From a bacterium (GTDB lineage Bacteria; Patescibacteriota; Patescibacteriia; S139-126), in NCBI GenBank assembly GCA_030666865.1, contig DAOUWZ010000010.1, forward strand, positions 1 through 39,802: a DNA stretch of 39,802 nt. Direction: 5' to 3'. The notes beneath the pieces were generated by a model. It did no database searches. It saw nothing but the letters and a program-made list of their open reading frames with translations, and had not been told where the DNA came from. Positions 767 to 25,491 of the stretch are shown here, piece by piece (the stretch's first letter is position 1; each line of letters starts with the position of its first letter). The translations under genes and the position numbers were made by a program.

Positions 767-791
767 CTCTTCTCCCTTTGGTCGTCGGGAC

Positions 792-891
792 ATATAACAA
801 GGGATATACGGTTCGGGGCTCGGCTCGGGCTTCACCCAAATTTTTCTTCCGCTTCGCTACAGAAAAACTTCGCATATACCAAACGTTAGGC
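792..891 (+). other. attC-like site ending the GrpB cassette
   Basis: Left core ATATAAC (792-798) and stem strand GGGATATACGG (801-811) pair with CGCATATACC (871-880), followed by right core GTTAGGC (885-891). The centre contains the shared blocks TTCACCCAAATTT and TTCCGCTTCGCTACAGAAAAACTTC seen, with variation, in the other sites. Size is 100 nt, within the usual attC range. The left core does not match the expected complement of this cassette's own start (GTTAAAC), so this cassette end has probably been rearranged; a palindrome insertion lies just upstream. Confidence 0.65.
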
Positions 892-2931: not shown

Positions 2932-3079
2932 TGTGTTTTGGGGCAAAGGGCATTCCCGCCAGAGGCGGACAGGCACCCCTTTAATTCCCCTCTTCCCCTT
3001 GCCCCTAAACAAAAAAAGAAATTTGAAAATTTTTTAAAACAAGTCCCGCCATTGCGGGACAAAAGAAAAGAAATACATC

Positions 3080-3143
3080 AGCTAACACGGCATATCTGGT
3101 TACGGCTTTTTACAAAAGCCTTCACCCATATTTGCCTCCGCTA
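3080..3143 (+). other. Half attC-like site (right arm missing)
   Basis: Core AGCTAAC (3080-3086), stem strand ACGGCATATCTGG (3087-3099), a hairpin GGCTTTTTACAAAAGCC (3104-3120) and the shared block TTCACCCATATTTGCCTCCGCTAC match the left half of the family. The expected right strand (CAGATATGCCGT then GTT) is absent. The match stops exactly where the 20-bp palindrome begins at 3144, after which chromosomal sequence continues. This marks the right edge of the first island. Confidence 0.65.
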
Positions 3144-3163
3144 CCTGCCTGCCGGCAGGCAGG
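3144..3163. repeat. Second copy of the 20-bp palindrome
   Basis: Identical to 747-766. It lies at the break point of the half attC-like site and is followed by AATGACAGTGG, the kind of TGACA tail that also follows the palindrome at 20809-20832. Confidence 0.85.
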
Positions 3164-5803: not shown

Positions 5804-6655
5804 ATGAGCATAAAAGCATTTAGTCTATTTTTGAATATTATTTTAGGCATGGGATTGTTATGTCTCATTATTTGGTTGGTAATACAAGACATCGATCCTG
5901 ATGGTTATCGAGAAATTGAATATAGTTTAGAAAATAAGAGTAATTTAGTGACTGGACCAGAGCCGGCAGCTAGAATATTGGGTGAATTTGAAGATCAAGG
6001 AATAAAATATTGGGAGGCGTTTATTGATCCAATTTATTTTGATTTGTATATTCCAAGACTTTATAACTCAATTACTATGGAAGTAGTTTATCGTGTCCAC
6101 AACCAGCAGATTTTGGAATTTGGCGGTTTAGGTACAGACGAGGGATGGAATTTTACTTTTAGACCAGGGGAAAATGAATTGTTGAATAATTTAGATTGGT
6201 CATGTAATAAATTTAATAAAGTAAAAATATGTAAAAATCCAGATAGCACTAGTCCTGAATTAACGTATCAGAATATAGATGAATTTTGGCGTCAGTTGAA
6301 TGATGAAAAGATAATTTTATATTTTTCACCTCGGCCAAAAAATTATGAATATGATTATTTAAATTTGAACACCGATTTGAGTTTGTATGATTATTTGATT
6401 ACTGAATATGACGGGTCAGAAGATTTTGGTAATGGTTGGCGAAGGAGAAAAGCATTTTTTTCATCAGAAGATTTATGGTTGGCTGGACATAAATATAAAT
6501 TTATTTTATCCGCTCCAGAGCTTGATCAGCGTGGTGGAGAAATTCAAATTGCATCAATAAAATTCATTTTAGAAAAAGAACCGATTACTTGGCAAAATAT
6601 TCCAATAAAATTGAAGAGATTAATGGCAAGACTTAAAAGTAAAATAGGCTTATGA
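5804..6655 (+). CDS. Membrane-anchored exported protein of unknown function
   Basis: The product has one N-terminal membrane helix (about residues 5-27) followed by about 255 residues outside the membrane, rich in aromatic residues and beta-strand-like segments (IKYWEAFIDPIYFDLYIPRLYN; EGWNFTFRPGENELL; KYKFILSAPELDQRGGEIQI). This suggests one or two beta-sandwich domains. I do not recognise the family. Start ATG 5804 is preferred to the TTG 6 nt upstream. A TATAAT lies 30 nt before the start without a convincing -35. Its stop overlaps the next start by 4 nt, so the two are translated together. Confidence 0.7.
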   Translation: MSIKAFSLFLNIILGMGLLCLIIWLVIQDIDPDGYREIEYSLENKSNLVTGPEPAARILGEFEDQGIKYWEAFIDPIYFDLYIPRLYNSITMEVVYRVHNQQILEFGGLGTDEGWNFTFRPGENELLNNLDWSCNKFNKVKICKNPDSTSPELTYQNIDEFWRQLNDEKIILYFSPRPKNYEYDYLNLNTDLSLYDYLITEYDGSEDFGNGWRRRKAFFSSEDLWLAGHKYKFILSAPELDQRGGEIQIASIKFILEKEPITWQNIPIKLKRLMARLKSKIGL

Positions 6656-7050
6656 TAATATCGCAAAAAATTAAAGAAAAATTATATCCGGTAAATAGAA
6701 TTTTATTTTATTGGTCGGTAATATTTTTTTTGGTACTAGTTATATTTGAGGATTTGAAAAAATCAATAGTATCCGCTCATTTTATGCCGCATATTTTTAT
6801 TATGTTAATTTTTTTATTTGGTATGATGACTTTTGTATTTTCTGAAAATAAAGTTAAACCTGAAAAAAAATATGTTATAAAAAAAACAGATAAGATATTG
6901 GCAATAATATCTGGAGTTATTTGCGCTGGTTTGTATTTGTTGTTTATTAAGAATATTTCCTATGTGACAGTTTTGATTATGATTTTGATAATAATATTAG
7001 TCTATTTTTTAATAGTCTATATGTTTAAAGAATTTGAAAAAAAAGAATGA
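6652..7050 (+). CDS. Small four-helix membrane protein, unknown
   Basis: 132 residues with four hydrophobic segments (about 18-33, 46-62, 83-99, 102-123) and a charged Lys/Glu tail. The segment between helices 2 and 3 (ENKVKPEKKYVIKKTDK) is basic and probably cytoplasmic. There are no recognisable motifs. It overlaps the upstream exported-protein gene (ATGA-type overlap), so a partnership between the two is likely but unproven. Confidence 0.65.
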   Translation: MIISQKIKEKLYPVNRILFYWSVIFFLVLVIFEDLKKSIVSAHFMPHIFIMLIFLFGMMTFVFSENKVKPEKKYVIKKTDKILAIISGVICAGLYLLFIKNISYVTVLIMILIIILVYFLIVYMFKEFEKKE

Positions 7051-21277: not shown

Positions 21278-21561
21278 GAATTGTCATTCTGGGTATGTTT
21301 TGATTTAGCGAAGTGGGTAAGGAGTTGTTTCCCCTGAAGGCTATTCGGCTCTGAGCTTATGGTCGAAGAGGGGATTTAGGGGGTTTATTATAGATCCACC
21401 CTTCTTATTTAATTTGAATTAACAATAAAATATGTATATAATTAAGTTATTATTAGTTTTTATTAATATTTATTTTGAATCATACCCCTCTTATGATTGA
21501 TAAAATATATAATAATTTTAGCTAATTTTAAATAAATGATCAACGAGTTTATATATTACTT
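21278..21561. other. Intergenic stretch before the second cassette island
   Basis: There is no gene. The left part (21300-21385) is richer in G+C and contains CCCCTGAAGG and GAGGGGATTTAGGGGG, resembling leftover repeat DNA; the rest is very A+T-rich. I see no left attC arm here although the first cassette core (GTTATAC) follows at 21562, so the left border of the island is degenerate. Confidence 0.5.
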
Positions 21562-22056
21562 GTTATACGCAATTCGTTTTTGGCTTTACTTAACCCCAAC
21601 TATTTTGTATGAAAAATAAAATTTCAAATATCCCCGATCATTTTTACAGAGTCAGTGTAAAAGCTTTGATTTTTGATAAAGAAAAAAGATTTTTACTTAC
21701 GCTGGAAAACAAGGGTTTGTGGGAATTACCCGGCGGTGGCTTAGATTTTGGTGAAAAACCTCAAATTTGCCTTGCACGTGAAATAAAAGAAGAAATGGGT
21801 TTGAATATTATCAGCATAAGCAATGAACCATCATACTTTTTCACAGCTCTACACAGAAGTGGCAAATGGTGGATATGCAACGTTGTCTACGAGGTAGTTG
21901 TAGAAAATCTTAATTTTACACCTTCAGACGAATGTGTGGAGTTGAGGTTTTTTACCAAAGAAGATGCTTTAAAAGAAAATCTTTTTTCTAATGTTGTTGA
22001 ATTTGTTAAGCTATATAATTCCGATAATCACTAACCAAAAACGAACAGCGTATAAC
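21562..22056. repeat. Terminal inverted arms of the Nudix cassette (21562-21583 / 22035-22056)
   Basis: The first 22 nt of the cassette (starting with core GTTATAC, then GC, AA, TTCGTTTTTGG) are the reverse complement of its last 22 nt (ending AGCGTATAAC) with two mismatches. The core pair GTTATAC/GTATAAC is exact, as attC biology predicts, and the match continues 15 nt further into the cassette body. Confidence 0.88.
21609..22034 (+). CDS. Nudix hydrolase, cassette-borne
   Basis: 141 residues with a complete Nudix box: PGGGLDFGEKPQICLA then REIKEEMGLNI, so all metal-binding Glu residues of REUXEE are present, unlike the Nudix protein at 12973. The N-terminus (RVSVKALIFDKEKRFLLTLE) is a typical first strand pair. 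It hydrolyses a nucleoside diphosphate linked to an unknown group. Nudix proteins are frequent integron cassette cargo. It is the only gene in the cassette, oriented toward the downstream attC-like site. Confidence 0.93.
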   Translation: MKNKISNIPDHFYRVSVKALIFDKEKRFLLTLENKGLWELPGGGLDFGEKPQICLAREIKEEMGLNIISISNEPSYFFTALHRSGKWWICNVVYEVVVENLNFTPSDECVELRFFTKEDALKENLFSNVVEFVKLYNSDNH

Positions 22057-22121
22057 AGCGGATAGGCTTACTTCCTAACAGAAGTCCTTCGTCAGGGCTT
22101 CGCCTATCCGCGGCATTATAT
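22050..22121 (+). other. Short attC-like site ending the Nudix cassette
   Basis: Core GTATAAC (22050-22056), stem AGCGGATAGGC (22057-22067) pairing with GCCTATCCGC (22102-22111), an inner hairpin GAAGTCC/GGGCTTC and right core ATTATAT (22115-22121). The right core has A where G is expected at the crossover point, so the present site may be poorly active. Size of 72 nt is typical for a compact attC. Confidence 0.72.
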
Positions 22122-22633
22122 GAAATTACTGTTAAATCACTAATATGGAAACTTTAATATCACTTCAATCAATAGTTATAGCAAGTATCGGCGTATTTGC
22201 GTCCGTAATCACTGCTTCTTTGTCATATTATTTTGCAAAAAGACACCAGCTAAAAATGGAGGAAAGAAGATTAAAGGAGAATTTTTATATTAAGTTTATT
22301 GAATCACTTAGTTTAGTTGCATTAGACAACAGCAACGCAACAGCTCTCGATAAACTTTCTGATGGTTTTAATAATCTTTTGATAATCGCCAATCAAAAAA
22401 CAATTGAAGTTTTAATGGAATTCCATAACTTTGTAAAAGTTGGGGGTAATACCGGTATACAGAGAGGTTCAATTGAATGGTCGAAAAAACACGATGAGTT
22501 ACTGACGAAGTTAGTGAAAGAAATTAGAAAAGATTTGTTAGGAAAAAAATCTGTGAGTGATAAAAATTTTCCTTTAATCCATTTGACCGGCGGAGGATCA
22601 AAGAAGCAGTGATTTAACAGTAACATCATATAA
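22116..22633. repeat. Terminal inverted arms of the next cassette (22116-22140 / 22609-22633)
   Basis: 25-nt arms with two adjacent mismatches: the left begins TTATATGA and ends GTTAAATCAC, the right begins GTGATTTAAC and ends with the core. The right arm contains the TGA stop of the ORF, and the left arm ends 4 nt before its ATG. Confidence 0.88.
22145..22612 (+). CDS. Membrane-anchored unknown protein, cassette-borne
   Basis: 155 residues. One N-terminal membrane helix (about 8-29, SIVIASIGVFASVITASLSY) is followed by a cytosolic helical domain beginning with a basic-acidic coiled stretch (KRHQLKMEERRLKENFYIKF). This layout (one helix plus a soluble helical tail) is common among proteins encoded by integron cassettes, but I recognise no family and assign no function. 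It is flanked by 25-nt inverted arms and followed by a large attC-like site. Confidence 0.72.
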   Translation: METLISLQSIVIASIGVFASVITASLSYYFAKRHQLKMEERRLKENFYIKFIESLSLVALDNSNATALDKLSDGFNNLLIIANQKTIEVLMEFHNFVKVGGNTGIQRGSIEWSKKHDELLTKLVKEIRKDLLGKKSVSDKNFPLIHLTGGGSKKQ

Positions 22634-22772
22634 CACGGTGTATCTGGCTCCAGAAAAATTCTTTTATTAATTATAATAATGAGTAAATTTTTCTTCCGAT
22701 CCAAATTTTGAAAATAATTATTAATTTTAATAAGGAATTTTCAAAACTTCAGATGACACCGATATGATAGAG
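22628..22772 (+). other. Long attC-like site
   Basis: Core ATATAAC (22628-22634) is the complement of this cassette's own start TTATAT. Stem ACGGTGTATCTGG (22635-22647) pairs with CAGATGACACCGAT (22750-22763) apart from a small bulge, then right core GATAGAG (22766-22772), with A in place of the first T of GTT. The centre is A+T-rich and forms further hairpins. The stem is nearly identical to those at 1384 and 3087, showing that both islands use one site family. Confidence 0.72.
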
Positions 22773-22806
22773 AGATAATTATAATCAACATATAAAACAG
22801 AAAATT

Positions 22807-23238
22807 ATGCCACCAACTTTTTTTATAATTTTGTTATTATTATCAATAGGATTTCACGTTGTATTCCCAATATTCAAGTTTGTTTTTTCTCCTTACAATT
22901 ATCTCGGAATAGTGTTGATTATTTTTGGAATTATAATAAATCTTTGGACAGATTCACTTTTTAAGAAAAAAGAAACTACTGTGAAACCTCATGAAACACC
23001 AAATTTCTTTATTGTTAATGGACCATTCAAATTAAGTAGGCATCCTATGTATCTTGGAATGTTATCTAGCTTACTTGGAACAGCGATTTTTCTCGGCTCA
23101 TTATCTCCATTTATTTTTTCAATAATATTCATAATCATAATTGAGAAATCATTTATTCCAATGGAAGAGAAAAATCTTGAAAAGAAATTTGGCAATAAAT
23201 ATATTAATTATAAAAAAAGAATAAGATGTTGGATTTAA
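22807..23238 (+). CDS. Isoprenylcysteine carboxyl methyltransferase-like membrane protein
   Basis: 143 residues with four or five hydrophobic segments and the ICMT/PEMT signature: GPFKLSRHPMYLGMLSSLLG (residues 74-93), with Arg-His-Pro and Tyr of the SAM/substrate site, then EKSFIPMEEKNLEKKFGNKY and YKKRIRCWI at the C-terminus. It is a SAM-dependent methyltransferase in the membrane; the substrate in bacteria is usually unknown. It is the third ORF of the second island and has the same orientation. Confidence 0.9.
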   Translation: MPPTFFIILLLLSIGFHVVFPIFKFVFSPYNYLGIVLIIFGIIINLWTDSLFKKKETTVKPHETPNFFIVNGPFKLSRHPMYLGMLSSLLGTAIFLGSLSPFIFSIIFIIIIEKSFIPMEEKNLEKKFGNKYINYKKRIRCWI

Positions 23239-23292
23239 TTCTACGGCGGGTTTTCGAACTGTCCCTTCGGTCGGTCGCCTTGCAGTCTCCCC

Positions 23293-23312
23293 ACATAACA
23301 TCGCGGATAATT
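23293..23312 (+). other. Possible half attC-like site after the ICMT-like gene
   Basis: ACATAAC (23293-23299) followed by ATCGCGGATAATT looks like a left core and left stem of the site family (compare ATAACAGCGGATAGGC at 22052). No matching right half follows before the promoter at 23352. It is a weak call, based on short similarity and position only. Confidence 0.35.
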
Positions 23313-23351
23313 ATTTGGCGCTATTTTTTATTTTTTTGCCCACAAAAACTA

Positions 23352-23379
23352 TTGACAAAACAATGTAAATGATGATAAC
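23352..23379 (+). promoter_or_regulatory. Likely promoter of the peptide/radical-SAM unit
   Basis: TTGACA (23352-23357) with GATAAC (23374-23379) at a 16-nt spacer. The -35 is a perfect consensus; the -10 is a 4 of 6 match. It precedes the small peptide gene by about 85 nt. Confidence 0.55.
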
Positions 23380-23464
23380 TTGTTATGTTAGTTCTTTAAC
23401 ATCCAATTCCAAGTCCTATTTCTTTATATTGCTCTTTCGGGTTAATAAAGTTAAATGGAAATCC

Positions 23465-23620
23465 ATGGTGGATTTTCAGCCCAAAGAGTTATTAGGGATA
23501 ATAGGCAAGAAAGGAGGAATTGCCGTGCAACCGGAAATCAAAAAGAAACCAGAAAAGAAACCAGAAAAGAAGCGCGTGAAAGTGCGCATCGGCAAGGGCA
23601 GTTGCAGCATCTGCGACTAG
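23465..23620 (+). CDS. Small Lys/Pro-rich peptide, candidate radical-SAM RiPP precursor
   Basis: From ATG 23465 the product has 51 residues; from GTG 23525, which has an excellent ribosome-binding site (AAGGAGG, 7 nt before), it has 31. Both end IGKGSCSICD. The body repeats KKPEK (EIKKKPEKKPEKKRVKVR) and is strongly basic; the only Cys residues are the two near the end, in CSIC. A short leader-like part followed by a small Cys-bearing end, placed 64 nt before a SPASM radical-SAM gene, is the standard layout of ribosomally made, post-translationally modified peptides. No known family matches from memory. The start choice is unresolved: the ATG form includes a plausible leader (VDFQPKELLGIIGKKGG). 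Confidence 0.6.
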   Translation: MVDFQPKELLGIIGKKGGIAVQPEIKKKPEKKPEKKRVKVRIGKGSCSICD

Positions 23621-23635
23621 CGCGTCCACCAACCG

Positions 23636-23662
23636 AGGGGAGGGTTGAAAAAATTCTCCCCT
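23636..23662 (+). promoter_or_regulatory. Hairpin between peptide gene and radical-SAM gene
   Basis: AGGGGAG (23636-23642) pairs exactly with CTCCCCT (23656-23662), followed by TATTTCATTC. The weak T-run suggests partial termination or protection of the upstream mRNA rather than a full stop. Such a hairpin would allow more peptide than enzyme to be made. The radical-SAM gene's own AGGAGG begins 10 nt later. Confidence 0.6.
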
Positions 23663-23684
23663 TATTTCATTCAGGAGGTAAAAC

Positions 23685-24764
23685 ATGGAATGCAAAACAG
23701 AAACCCCTCGTCTGGAAGTTGAAACCGAAGACACTATTTATGAGATAGAATTCGGCCAGGTCCAGATTGAAATCACAGGTCGGTGTAACATGAGTTGCCA
23801 ACATTGCAGGGCAGCTCATCAGCCTAAACATGACATGCCGATCGAACAGATCGTCAAAATTATCCGATTCGCCCGACAGTTCAGCCCGAATTACAAGGAA
23901 GTAATCCTGTCCGGCGGTGAACCATTGATGCATCACGACTTCGCCGATGTCCTGAGACAAGTTCGCAACAACGGTGGAGAATTTATCACGCTAACGACTA
24001 ACGGTTCGTTGCTTACCAACGAGCACCTGACACTGATCAGGGATTTGTCTTTTCAGCGCTTCGTGCTTTCGGTAAGTCTGGACAACCTCGATCCAGTTAA
24101 GCATGATGAATTCCGCGCGCATAAGAACGCTTTTCCCAAAGCCGTCAGCGCTCTACGCTTAGTGGCCGAAAGTGGTCTGACGAATGTTATCGCCTCAATG
24201 CGGTCCACAATTCAGGCTTCACAAATCGGTGAGATGGAAAGCATGGTGAAGTTTGCGAAAGACATTGGCTGTAAACGAGTCAGCTTTTCCGCAATCCATC
24301 CCGCAGGAAAAGCAATTGAACGCGATGATCTCTGGATGACCAAAGAACAAAAACTAGCATTCATTCAAGAGATATATCGGCTCAAAACTGTTTTCCCTGA
24401 ACTGAATGTCACTACTAATGATCCGTTAAAATGCCTGCTCCGTGGAAAAAATGACTTGGGAGAAAACGGAGAATTGGTTTTTGACGGATGCGGAGCCGCC
24501 GCCATAACTTTCAACGTCAATTCTGATGGCACGATGACCCCATGTGCCTTACTGAATGTTCCGATGATGAACGTCTTCCCTTTGAGCATAGAGGAAATGA
24601 CTGAAAAATATCGGGAAAATTCCATTGTCAGGAACATGCTGGCGATGAACCTTAAGGGTAAATGCGGATCCTGCCAAATGAAATATCAATGCGGCGGGTG
24701 TCGTGCACGTGCCCTGATCCAAAAGGGGGATTATCTTGAAGAGGACCCTCATTGTTGGGTGTAA
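23685..24764 (+). CDS. Radical SAM/SPASM peptide-modifying enzyme (candidate)
   Basis: 359 residues. The radical-SAM cluster motif CNMSCQHC gives Cys34, Cys38 and Cys41 (CX3CX2C), followed by the SAM-binding SGGEPLMHHDF. The C-terminal SPASM domain shows GCGAAAITFNVNSDGTMTPC and the cluster Cys327, 330, 336, 339 (CX2CX5CX2C) with Cys357 at the extreme end, enough for two auxiliary iron-sulfur clusters. SPASM proteins mature peptides or enzymes by radical chemistry, for example thioether formation; the CSIC end of the upstream peptide is the obvious candidate substrate. Strong AGGAGG ribosome-binding site. By eye about half G+C, against about one third around it, so probably acquired. Confidence 0.88.
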   Translation: MECKTETPRLEVETEDTIYEIEFGQVQIEITGRCNMSCQHCRAAHQPKHDMPIEQIVKIIRFARQFSPNYKEVILSGGEPLMHHDFADVLRQVRNNGGEFITLTTNGSLLTNEHLTLIRDLSFQRFVLSVSLDNLDPVKHDEFRAHKNAFPKAVSALRLVAESGLTNVIASMRSTIQASQIGEMESMVKFAKDIGCKRVSFSAIHPAGKAIERDDLWMTKEQKLAFIQEIYRLKTVFPELNVTTNDPLKCLLRGKNDLGENGELVFDGCGAAAITFNVNSDGTMTPCALLNVPMMNVFPLSIEEMTEKYRENSIVRNMLAMNLKGKCGSCQMKYQCGGCRARALIQKGDYLEEDPHCWV

Positions 24765-24783
24765 AAACCCACTTCTACCAACC

Positions 24784-24813
24784 AAGGCCATTTTTGAAAA
24801 ATAAAATGGCCTT
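24784..24813 (+). terminator. Rho-independent terminator after the radical-SAM gene
   Basis: AAGGCCATTTT (24784-24794), loop TGAAAAAT, AAAATGGCCTT (24803-24813), then TTA. It closes the two-gene unit. Confidence 0.75.
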
Positions 24814-24851
24814 TACTTCTTATATTCGCCTTTTTATTATATAATGAGAAT

Positions 24852-25316
24852 ATGAACATCTATTTGAAAAAATTTATTGAAGAAAAATTTAGAAAACCAG
24901 GTAAGGCATTGGATTTAGGAGCTGGTGATTTTTTTGATGTTGCTTGCCTAAAACAGCTGGGCTGGAAATGCGAAGGAGTGGACATAAAAACTGGCGTTGA
25001 TTTAGAAAAATATTTTTTATCAGAAAAACACCCTTTCGATCTGGTTTTTTCAAATTATGTAATTCATAAACTAAATGATAAAGAACAATTTATCAAAACA
25101 GTTTTTGATAATTTAAAAAAAGATAGCTGGTTTTTTATTCATACCTTTGATAAAAAAGACAAGAATAGTAAATCGGCCTTAACAGCAGATCACTTGCGAA
25201 AAATATTGTCCAGACAGGGTTTTAAAAATATTAAAACTGGAGTTTTCAGTTATTACGACAACGAAGAAGGACATAAACATTGGCATAAAATTTTAGAAGC
25301 AACCGGAAAAAAATAA
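24852..25316 (+). CDS. Class I SAM-dependent methyltransferase
   Basis: 154 residues: motif I ALDLGAGDFFDVACLKQLGW (residues 19-38) with the Gly-rich SAM loop, acidic end of strand 2 in EGVDIKTGVDL, motif IV FDLVFSNYVIHKL (57-69) and a later strand SWFFIHTFDK. It is compact, similar in size to TehB-like methyltransferases. The substrate is unknown. It is followed by a complete attC-like site, so it is probably a cassette whose left end was lost when the radical-SAM unit arrived. A+T content returns to the local norm. Confidence 0.88.
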   Translation: MNIYLKKFIEEKFRKPGKALDLGAGDFFDVACLKQLGWKCEGVDIKTGVDLEKYFLSEKHPFDLVFSNYVIHKLNDKEQFIKTVFDNLKKDSWFFIHTFDKKDKNSKSALTADHLRKILSRQGFKNIKTGVFSYYDNEEGHKHWHKILEATGKK

Positions 25317-25391
25317 AAAATAGCCCCGAATAATATTTTGCTTCCCGCCAATTCGGCGGGCAGGCGCAAAACAAAAATTTTTAATTACATC

Positions 25392-25491
25392 CGATAACAA
25401 CGAGTATCCGGTTACGGCTCTTCCGAGAACCTCCACCCATATTTTATTCCGCTCCGCTACACAAAATATCAGATATACGCGAACGTTAGCA
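25392..25491 (+). other. attC-like site at the right edge of the second island
   Basis: Core CGATAAC (25392-25398), stem AACGAGTATCCGG paired imperfectly with CAGATATACGCG, right core GTTAGCA (25485-25491). The centre has TTACGGCTCTTCCGAG, the block CTCCACCCATATTTT and TTCCGCTCCGCTACACAAAA, closely matching the sites at 792 and 3080. No cassette follows; the pilus operon begins, in the opposite direction. A G+C-rich palindrome (CCCGCCAATTCGGCGGG) lies at 25345-25361, before it. Confidence 0.7.

Follow-up and report, generated by a model that had tools for sequence, protein, structure and literature searches.

CPR bacteria, with their very small genomes, are believed to live on other bacteria, and few means by which they act on their neighbors are known. 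In a member of the class Patescibacteriia, the stretch of DNA analyzed here (the window, 39,802 nucleotides) encodes a tiny basic peptide with the C-terminal end GKGSCSICD beside a radical-SAM enzyme of the SPASM type, and the question is whether the two form a peptide-modification system and how such a system is carried. The initial annotation had described a mobile two-gene unit inside a cassette island, with a peptide starting at the ATG at position 23465. From comparisons across related loci we think it likely that the unit makes a ribosomally synthesized, posttranslationally modified peptide and is carried as an integron-type cassette (Table 1).

Table 1. Features of the peptide-enzyme unit and its cassette (positions in the window)
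Feature	Position	Strand	Details or basis
R''-like box of the preceding PEMT/ICMT methyltransferase cassette	23293..23299	+	ACATAAC; sequence
Unit as a whole	~23300 to 25491		Three genes: peptide, SPASM enzyme, methyltransferase
Left inverted-repeat arm	23310..23337	+	ATTATTTGGCGCTATTTTTTATT...; 93% complementary to 25307-25334
Promoter-like TTGACA + TGATAAC inside the cassette	23352..23380	+	Aligned in L026, L030, L004, L032; consensus match only
Structured 5' leader	23390..23520	+	Alignment and RNAalifold
Shine-Dalgarno of the precursor gene	23510..23517	+	AAAGGAGG; sequence; kept in relatives
Precursor peptide gene	23525..23620	+	31 aa, VQPEIKKKPEKKPEKKRVKVRIGKGSCSICD; GTG start
Hairpin between precursor and enzyme genes	23635..23662	+	Folded spacers
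Radical SAM/SPASM enzyme, predicted peptide maturase	23685..24764	+	359 aa
Terminator-like hairpin 3' of the enzyme gene	24784..24814	+	Sequence; counterpart visible in L004
Class I SAM-dependent methyltransferase (Methyltransf_23), third gene	24852..25316	+	154 aa; Pfam
Right inverted-repeat arm	25307..25334	-	Complementarity to the left arm
attC closing the cassette	25391..25491	+	R'' CGATAAC, L'' ACGAGTATCCGG ... R' CGTTAGC

The small ORF, read directly from the sequence, terminates in KKRVKVRIGKGSCSICD at 23620 and has two candidate starts, the ATG at 23465, which is without a good ribosome-binding site, and a GTG at 23525 behind AAAGGAGG. The peptide's ATG in the nearest relatives (loci L026 and L030) aligns exactly with the window GTG and likewise lies behind AAAGGAGG, and in L026 the upstream frame contains a stop; for these two reasons we take the peptide to be 31 aa long. 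The ATG at 23465 was rejected as a start, and the 20 N-terminal residues originally read from it belong to a noncoding, structured 5' leader, while the small basic peptide with its GKGSCSICD end stands.

The enzyme gene has its own ribosome-binding site (AGGAGG, 23673 to 23678) and is followed by a terminator-like hairpin, both as first described. Its product carries the CxxxCxxC cysteines at residues 34, 38, and 41 and seven SPASM cysteines at 269, 287, 327, 330, 336, 339, and 357, in the ligand pattern of SPASM maturases (CxxxCxxC, then Cx9-15Gx4C ... Cx2Cx5CxnC ... C); the three SAM-cluster and seven auxiliary-cluster cysteines are invariant in all 12 aligned family members. Pfam recovered Radical_SAM (5.4e-22) together with a SPASM match that fell under that model's own cutoff. 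Assignment to a known SPASM maturase family was rejected, as every curated cutoff was missed: the best NCBIfam scores were to NirJ2 (159 bits), TIGR04053 (143), GeoRSP (143), and AhbD (139), with PqqE lower at 82 bits (cutoff 381), compared with cutoffs of 381 to 500 bits for these five models, and the PapB model NF047865 gave 77.8 bits against a cutoff of 340.

The predicted structure of the enzyme (mean pLDDT 83.5) has SkfB, SuiB (with SuiA), and CteB as its closest solved folds, at 17 to 21% identity, with PqqE (6c8v) and anSME ranked lower; judged from this model, the fold neighbors are peptide- or protein-modifying enzymes. General radical-SAM similarity (7.8e-17) was seen to the PADLOC pVip model (prokaryotic viperin, a defense protein); the SPASM ligands and the linked peptide argue against a viperin identity. 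An apparent giant fused enzyme in another genome (G656, open frame of 3030 aa) arose as an artifact where masked sequence was read as N. In L035/L006 the clade B enzyme has a frameshift near its end, directly behind its GGCRARA motif, that is either real or an assembly error.

We examined 287 genomes of the phylum, 381 genomes of the class, the family of G112, and, in a broader scan, 84,980 species; after duplicate records of one genome were merged, the enzyme family was represented at 17 distinct loci, the window counted. Most of them come from metagenome-assembled genomes (MAGs), and the great majority belong to Patescibacteria/CPR, with two labeled otherwise (a Planctomycetota MAG and a Bdellovibrio MAG); these two labels could be binning errors. 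Relatives without a neighboring short Cys-ended ORF were specifically sought, and there were none (0 of 17): a tiny basic ORF of 19 to 40 aa with a Cys-containing tail lies near the enzyme at every locus and is adjacent to it at 16, the exception being L036, where the candidate peptide is 3' of the enzyme with one other gene in between. Examples of these peptides are MQPEIKKKPEKKRVKVRIGKGSCSICD, MKNKVVKKRIKVRIGKGSCSICD, MSPKKKRIKVRIGKGSCSICD, and MKKKRVRVRIGKKSCSTCD (19 aa), and others read MKKPKQKKRLKVRIGQNGCRTCDTNG, MKTRIRVRILKCRCFTCDSN, and MNTSEGKKRVRIVLASGGCDTSGSYK.

A preset test required a peptide of 18 to 45 aa with a ribosome-binding site, a net charge of at least +4, and C-x-x-[CS] near its end, located no more than 400 bases upstream of the enzyme. 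It was passed by 14 of the 17 family loci, by none of 18 outgroup radical-SAM loci, and by 0.5% of 4,000 random positions, and the association of peptide and enzyme exceeds chance. Each of the three misses still has a candidate peptide; the contig end cuts off the ribosome-binding site in L028, the net charge is +3 in L037, and the peptide follows the enzyme in L036. What the loci hold in common is a short precursor encoded beside a modifying-type enzyme, with the pair conserved, which is the genetic criterion for a RiPP. One copy of the peptide, enzyme, and methyltransferase genes (L027; CAINVT010000050.1, 2895 to 6629) lies in the S10 operon of ribosomal protein genes, flanked by rplB and rpsS.

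The peptide tails fall into three types by enzyme clade: C-x-[IT]-C-D in clade A, CRC[FM]TCDxN in clade B, and CxTSGSYK in clade C. Clade B (four enzymes) and clade C (two enzymes) have support values of 99/100 and 98/95 in the enzyme tree, with C-x-[IT]-C-D tails on the remaining branches, and the tails co-diversify with the enzyme clades. The basic segment, the first Cys, [IT] at +2, and [CS] at +3 are invariant over all loci. Ser replaces the second Cys in clade C, and the final Asp is missing there and in L070 (Ser instead; tail CAICS), leaving a Cys-X3-Asp/Glu acceptor motif in clade B and most of clade A. Because of these losses of Asp, a CX3D cross-link suits the window peptide without extending to every family member, and with Asp changed to Ser in L070 and the second Cys to Ser in clade C, no single cross-link of this type can apply to all members.

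The unit is larger than first supposed. The span originally given, 23465 to 24764, contains the peptide and enzyme genes, and the pair itself is confirmed, but the unit extends beyond it on both sides and in clade A includes a methyltransferase as a third gene. Proteins of this methyltransferase family are ~155 aa long and adjoin the enzyme or its remnant at at least eight loci, after the enzyme in the window, L026, L004, L027, and L032, before the peptide in L008 and L070, and also at L081. Homologs occur in 5 of the 287 phylum genomes, and 4 of the 5 lie beside the enzyme or a remnant: three next to an intact or truncated unit, and the fourth (G138) right after a remnant. That remnant (G138:C27, locus L081, ~6180 to 6772) is a degraded unit that retains the basic N terminus of a peptide and the enzyme's last residues, GGCRARAFVEYNDYLAPDPHCWL, with the methyltransferase intact. 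In clade B, the third gene is a polymerase-beta-type nucleotidyltransferase located after the enzyme, recognized by weak Pfam matches in L033 and L069 and by eye in L034.

Two further points of the initial annotation are borne out. The base composition is distinct, with a GC content of 49% in the precursor gene and 47% in the enzyme gene compared with 32% in the whole window (the methyltransferase gene has 30%), and no transporter or protease was recognized adjoining the window unit. Across the loci, no leader-removal protease or exporter was recognized next to the unit except for a MATE exporter 3' of it in L037, and no RRE domain was found beside most copies. A leader-removal protease or exporter is usual in RiPP clusters, though not universal.

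The ends of the unit identify its vehicle. Inverted arms surround it in the window, L026, and L034, and in L030 the left arm is present before the contig ends. In L026 and L034 the same cassette opens with a G followed by TTATCGGAAATAATTAAAAG (start G, then TTATCGG) and has CGATAAC-A-L'' ... L'-ACGTTR at its far end; this opening is missing from the window, where the preceding cassette abuts a truncated 5' boundary. L034 has arms and attC as in the window and L026 but holds a clade B unit, with an enzyme 39% identical to that of the window and a different third gene, whereas the other two hold clade A units, and ends of one kind therefore carry different cargo. Over 16 attC sites, 93.8% of cells in the helices (core plus arms) are paired, compared with 18 to 37% when slid by one to three columns; covariation is 0.313, compared with 0.123 when shuffled and at most 0.108 when slid, and 29 cells are changed on both sides, compared with 10 in shuffles. 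With attC core boxes, covarying arms, and the same boundaries around different cargo, the unit is an integron-type gene cassette; the idea of a mobile unit in a cassette island thus holds, though not its restriction to two genes. Carriage by viruses or plasmids was rejected, as nothing closer than distant radical-SAM proteins turned up in two scans of viral contigs or in the phage and plasmid collections.

Integron cassettes are known chiefly for resistance genes. The present cassette shares with integron cassettes and CALINs the R''-L''/L'-R' attC architecture, arrays in one orientation, and cargo exchange, and differs from the usual ones in its three-gene cargo, a predicted promoter of its own, and the lack of an integron integrase in the window's genome. 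There, no integrase scored above the cutoff, and only two matches fell below it: the candidate at G000:C21, rejected on inspection as an Xer-like recombinase of 271 aa that adjoins miaB and lacks the integron-specific insert, and one other. Relatives of this attC type occur in 94 of the 381 class genomes, several per genome and in same-strand arrays (L107 and L108), and an integrase above the cutoff occurs in one of the 381 (G475). The latter is a full integron integrase (436 bits; G475:C17, locus L105, 2594 to 3580) in a genome that also has arrays of this attC type; its contig is only 3.8 kb, so that its ownership is unsure in terms of binning. The class-wide distribution of this attC type suggests that Patescibacteria have an extensive integron cassette system, in most cases with no recognizable integrase. 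In the open-access literature we found no report centered on integrons in Patescibacteria or on this attC type there, which is weak evidence of absence.

Two more attC sites lie in the window (791 to 891 and 3079 to 3144), and others were seen at loci L083 to L102, L107, and L108. Immediately 5' of the unit is an array (21561 to 23299) of a NUDIX gene (21609 to 22034), a small membrane protein gene (22145 to 22612), and a PEMT/ICMT-type methyltransferase gene (22807 to 23238); the first two cassettes have their own inverted terminal arms, and the third ends in the R''-like box.

Very short precursors paired with a SPASM enzyme are known from PqqA-PqqE and MftA-MftC, where they are precursors for PQQ and mycofactocin. 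The unit resembles these pairs, and PqqE is among the structural matches of its enzyme, yet it has no adjoining PqqD/MftB chaperone, protease, or downstream oxidation genes, and its tail differs. On this likeness rests the best-surviving alternative, in which the peptide would give rise to a small redox cofactor or a metal-binding molecule rather than to a secreted peptide. Scale and layout are the same (a precursor of 19 to 40 aa, a SPASM enzyme, an expected modification site at the extreme C terminus, and no exporter), and the leading NCBIfam scores, with PqqE below them, can be read in its favor. However, no PqqD/RRE, peptidase, or dependent oxidoreductase is conserved next to the unit, and its patchy cassette distribution is unlike that of a core cofactor pathway; we regard a cofactor precursor as unlikely.

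Sactipeptide, ranthipeptide, and streptide systems usually have larger precursors and an N-terminal RRE domain in the maturase. Their maturases SkfB, CteB, and SuiB are the best structural matches of the unit's enzyme, share auxiliary clusters with it, and act on peptide substrates, as is proposed for it, but the enzyme lacks the N-terminal RRE domain, and identity to them is low, as given above. In PapA/PapB-type ranthipeptides, the SPASM maturase PapB makes a CX3D cross-link, and the precursor has six such motifs (PMC9413430). The window tail CSICD is itself CX3D, but the present precursors carry one motif in 19 to 40 aa, no RRE domain was seen, the PapB model scored far under its cutoff (78 bits against 340), and the Asp is missing in L070 and clade C. 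RiPP loci of the graspetide type have already been described in CPR bacteria (PMC8939145), with ATP-grasp ligase chemistry in contrast to the radical-SAM chemistry here. The early expectation that a mobile two-gene peptide maturation system in candidate phyla would be new needs qualifying by these graspetides; in the open-access literature searched we found no radical-SAM RiPP family in CPR, an absence that is weak evidence. The RiPP logic is known, the enzyme-peptide family is new, and an integron cassette is an unusual vehicle for it.

The expression elements bear on a further alternative. The promoter-like TTGACA box and a leader of ~130 bases are common to five clade A loci (window, L026, L030, L004, and L032), and the leader contains a boxA-like AGTTCTTTAACAT, AAGTCCTA, and a long hairpin able to reach the ribosome-binding site. 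RNAalifold on the five sequences gave 42 pairs, 12 of them with two-sided changes; because the covariation term is unfavorable and the set is small, a conserved leader structure is suggestive only. No Rfam match was found. The leader is a candidate regulatory RNA, possibly masking the ribosome-binding site; a copy of an rRNA leader was rejected, as the 16S leader of the same genome has a different sequence by eye. Between the peptide and enzyme genes, a stable hairpin is present in all 16 spacers folded, with sequences unrelated between clades, and it may be a leaky terminator or a processing site; such hairpins are as would be expected of a leaky terminator giving more peptide than enzyme.

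The order of short ORF, hairpin, and enzyme gene, behind a structured 5' leader, could also be that of attenuation, with the ORF as a leader peptide whose translation, together with the hairpin, controls the enzyme gene, and not as a substrate. In the 17-codon core of the clade A peptides (seven loci), however, pS is 0.83 and pN is 0.086 (pN/pS of 0.10), with mostly silent differences; the core is under purifying selection, and the amino acid sequence is conserved against silent drift. The tail moreover follows the enzyme clade, and in L036 the peptide lies 3' of the enzyme gene, making attenuation highly improbable. Slimmer still is the chance that the enzyme acts on another substrate (tRNA, lipid, heme, or protein) with the peptide as an accessory metal or cluster carrier. 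The enzyme's scores to heme-pathway SPASM enzymes and the metal-binding potential of a CxxC tail speak for it, but the tail comes in three types that co-diversify with the enzyme, one of them lacking the second Cys, and no metabolic neighbor is common to the loci.

The peptide-enzyme unit is thus best read as a new RiPP-like family in which the radical-SAM enzyme very probably modifies the Cys-containing tail of the peptide. The peptide would be made in excess over the enzyme, since the spacer hairpin would limit read-through. Recognition by the SPASM enzyme may need no RRE domain and rely on direct contact with the basic K-K-R-h-x-V-R-h segment; when the L028 peptide was modeled as a read-through fusion to its enzyme, residues 4 to 10 formed a strand (mean confidence 72) and the tail was disordered (35). 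The enzyme would then use its radical on the C-terminal C-x-[IT]-[CS]-[DG] tail, most likely yielding a thioether or comparable cross-link that starts at the first Cys, which is conserved throughout. The methyltransferase of clade A or the nucleotidyltransferase of clade B may tailor the product further or protect against it, and leader removal and export would rely on host functions encoded elsewhere. For the window, L026, and L034, the genes are the cargo of an integron-type cassette with a predicted promoter of its own, which would account for both the patchy distribution and the replacement of cassette for cassette.

A bolder version of the modified-peptide reading is possible, and we offer it tentatively: the unit would represent a new RiPP class, in which a basic mini-peptide with almost no leader has its invariant C-terminal Cys cross-linked not to Asp but to the residue at +2 or +3 (Ile/Thr or Cys/Ser), and which has spread among CPR episymbionts as exchangeable integron cassettes that deliver four elements at once: the precursor, its maturase, a tailoring enzyme, and a promoter.

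These findings suggest that the class Patescibacteriia has an extensive attC-type cassette system and that integron cassettes can carry a complete peptide biosynthesis unit. At 31, 359, and 154 aa, this self-contained mobile peptide-modification system is small enough for expression in Escherichia coli, which would allow a direct test of how such peptides act.
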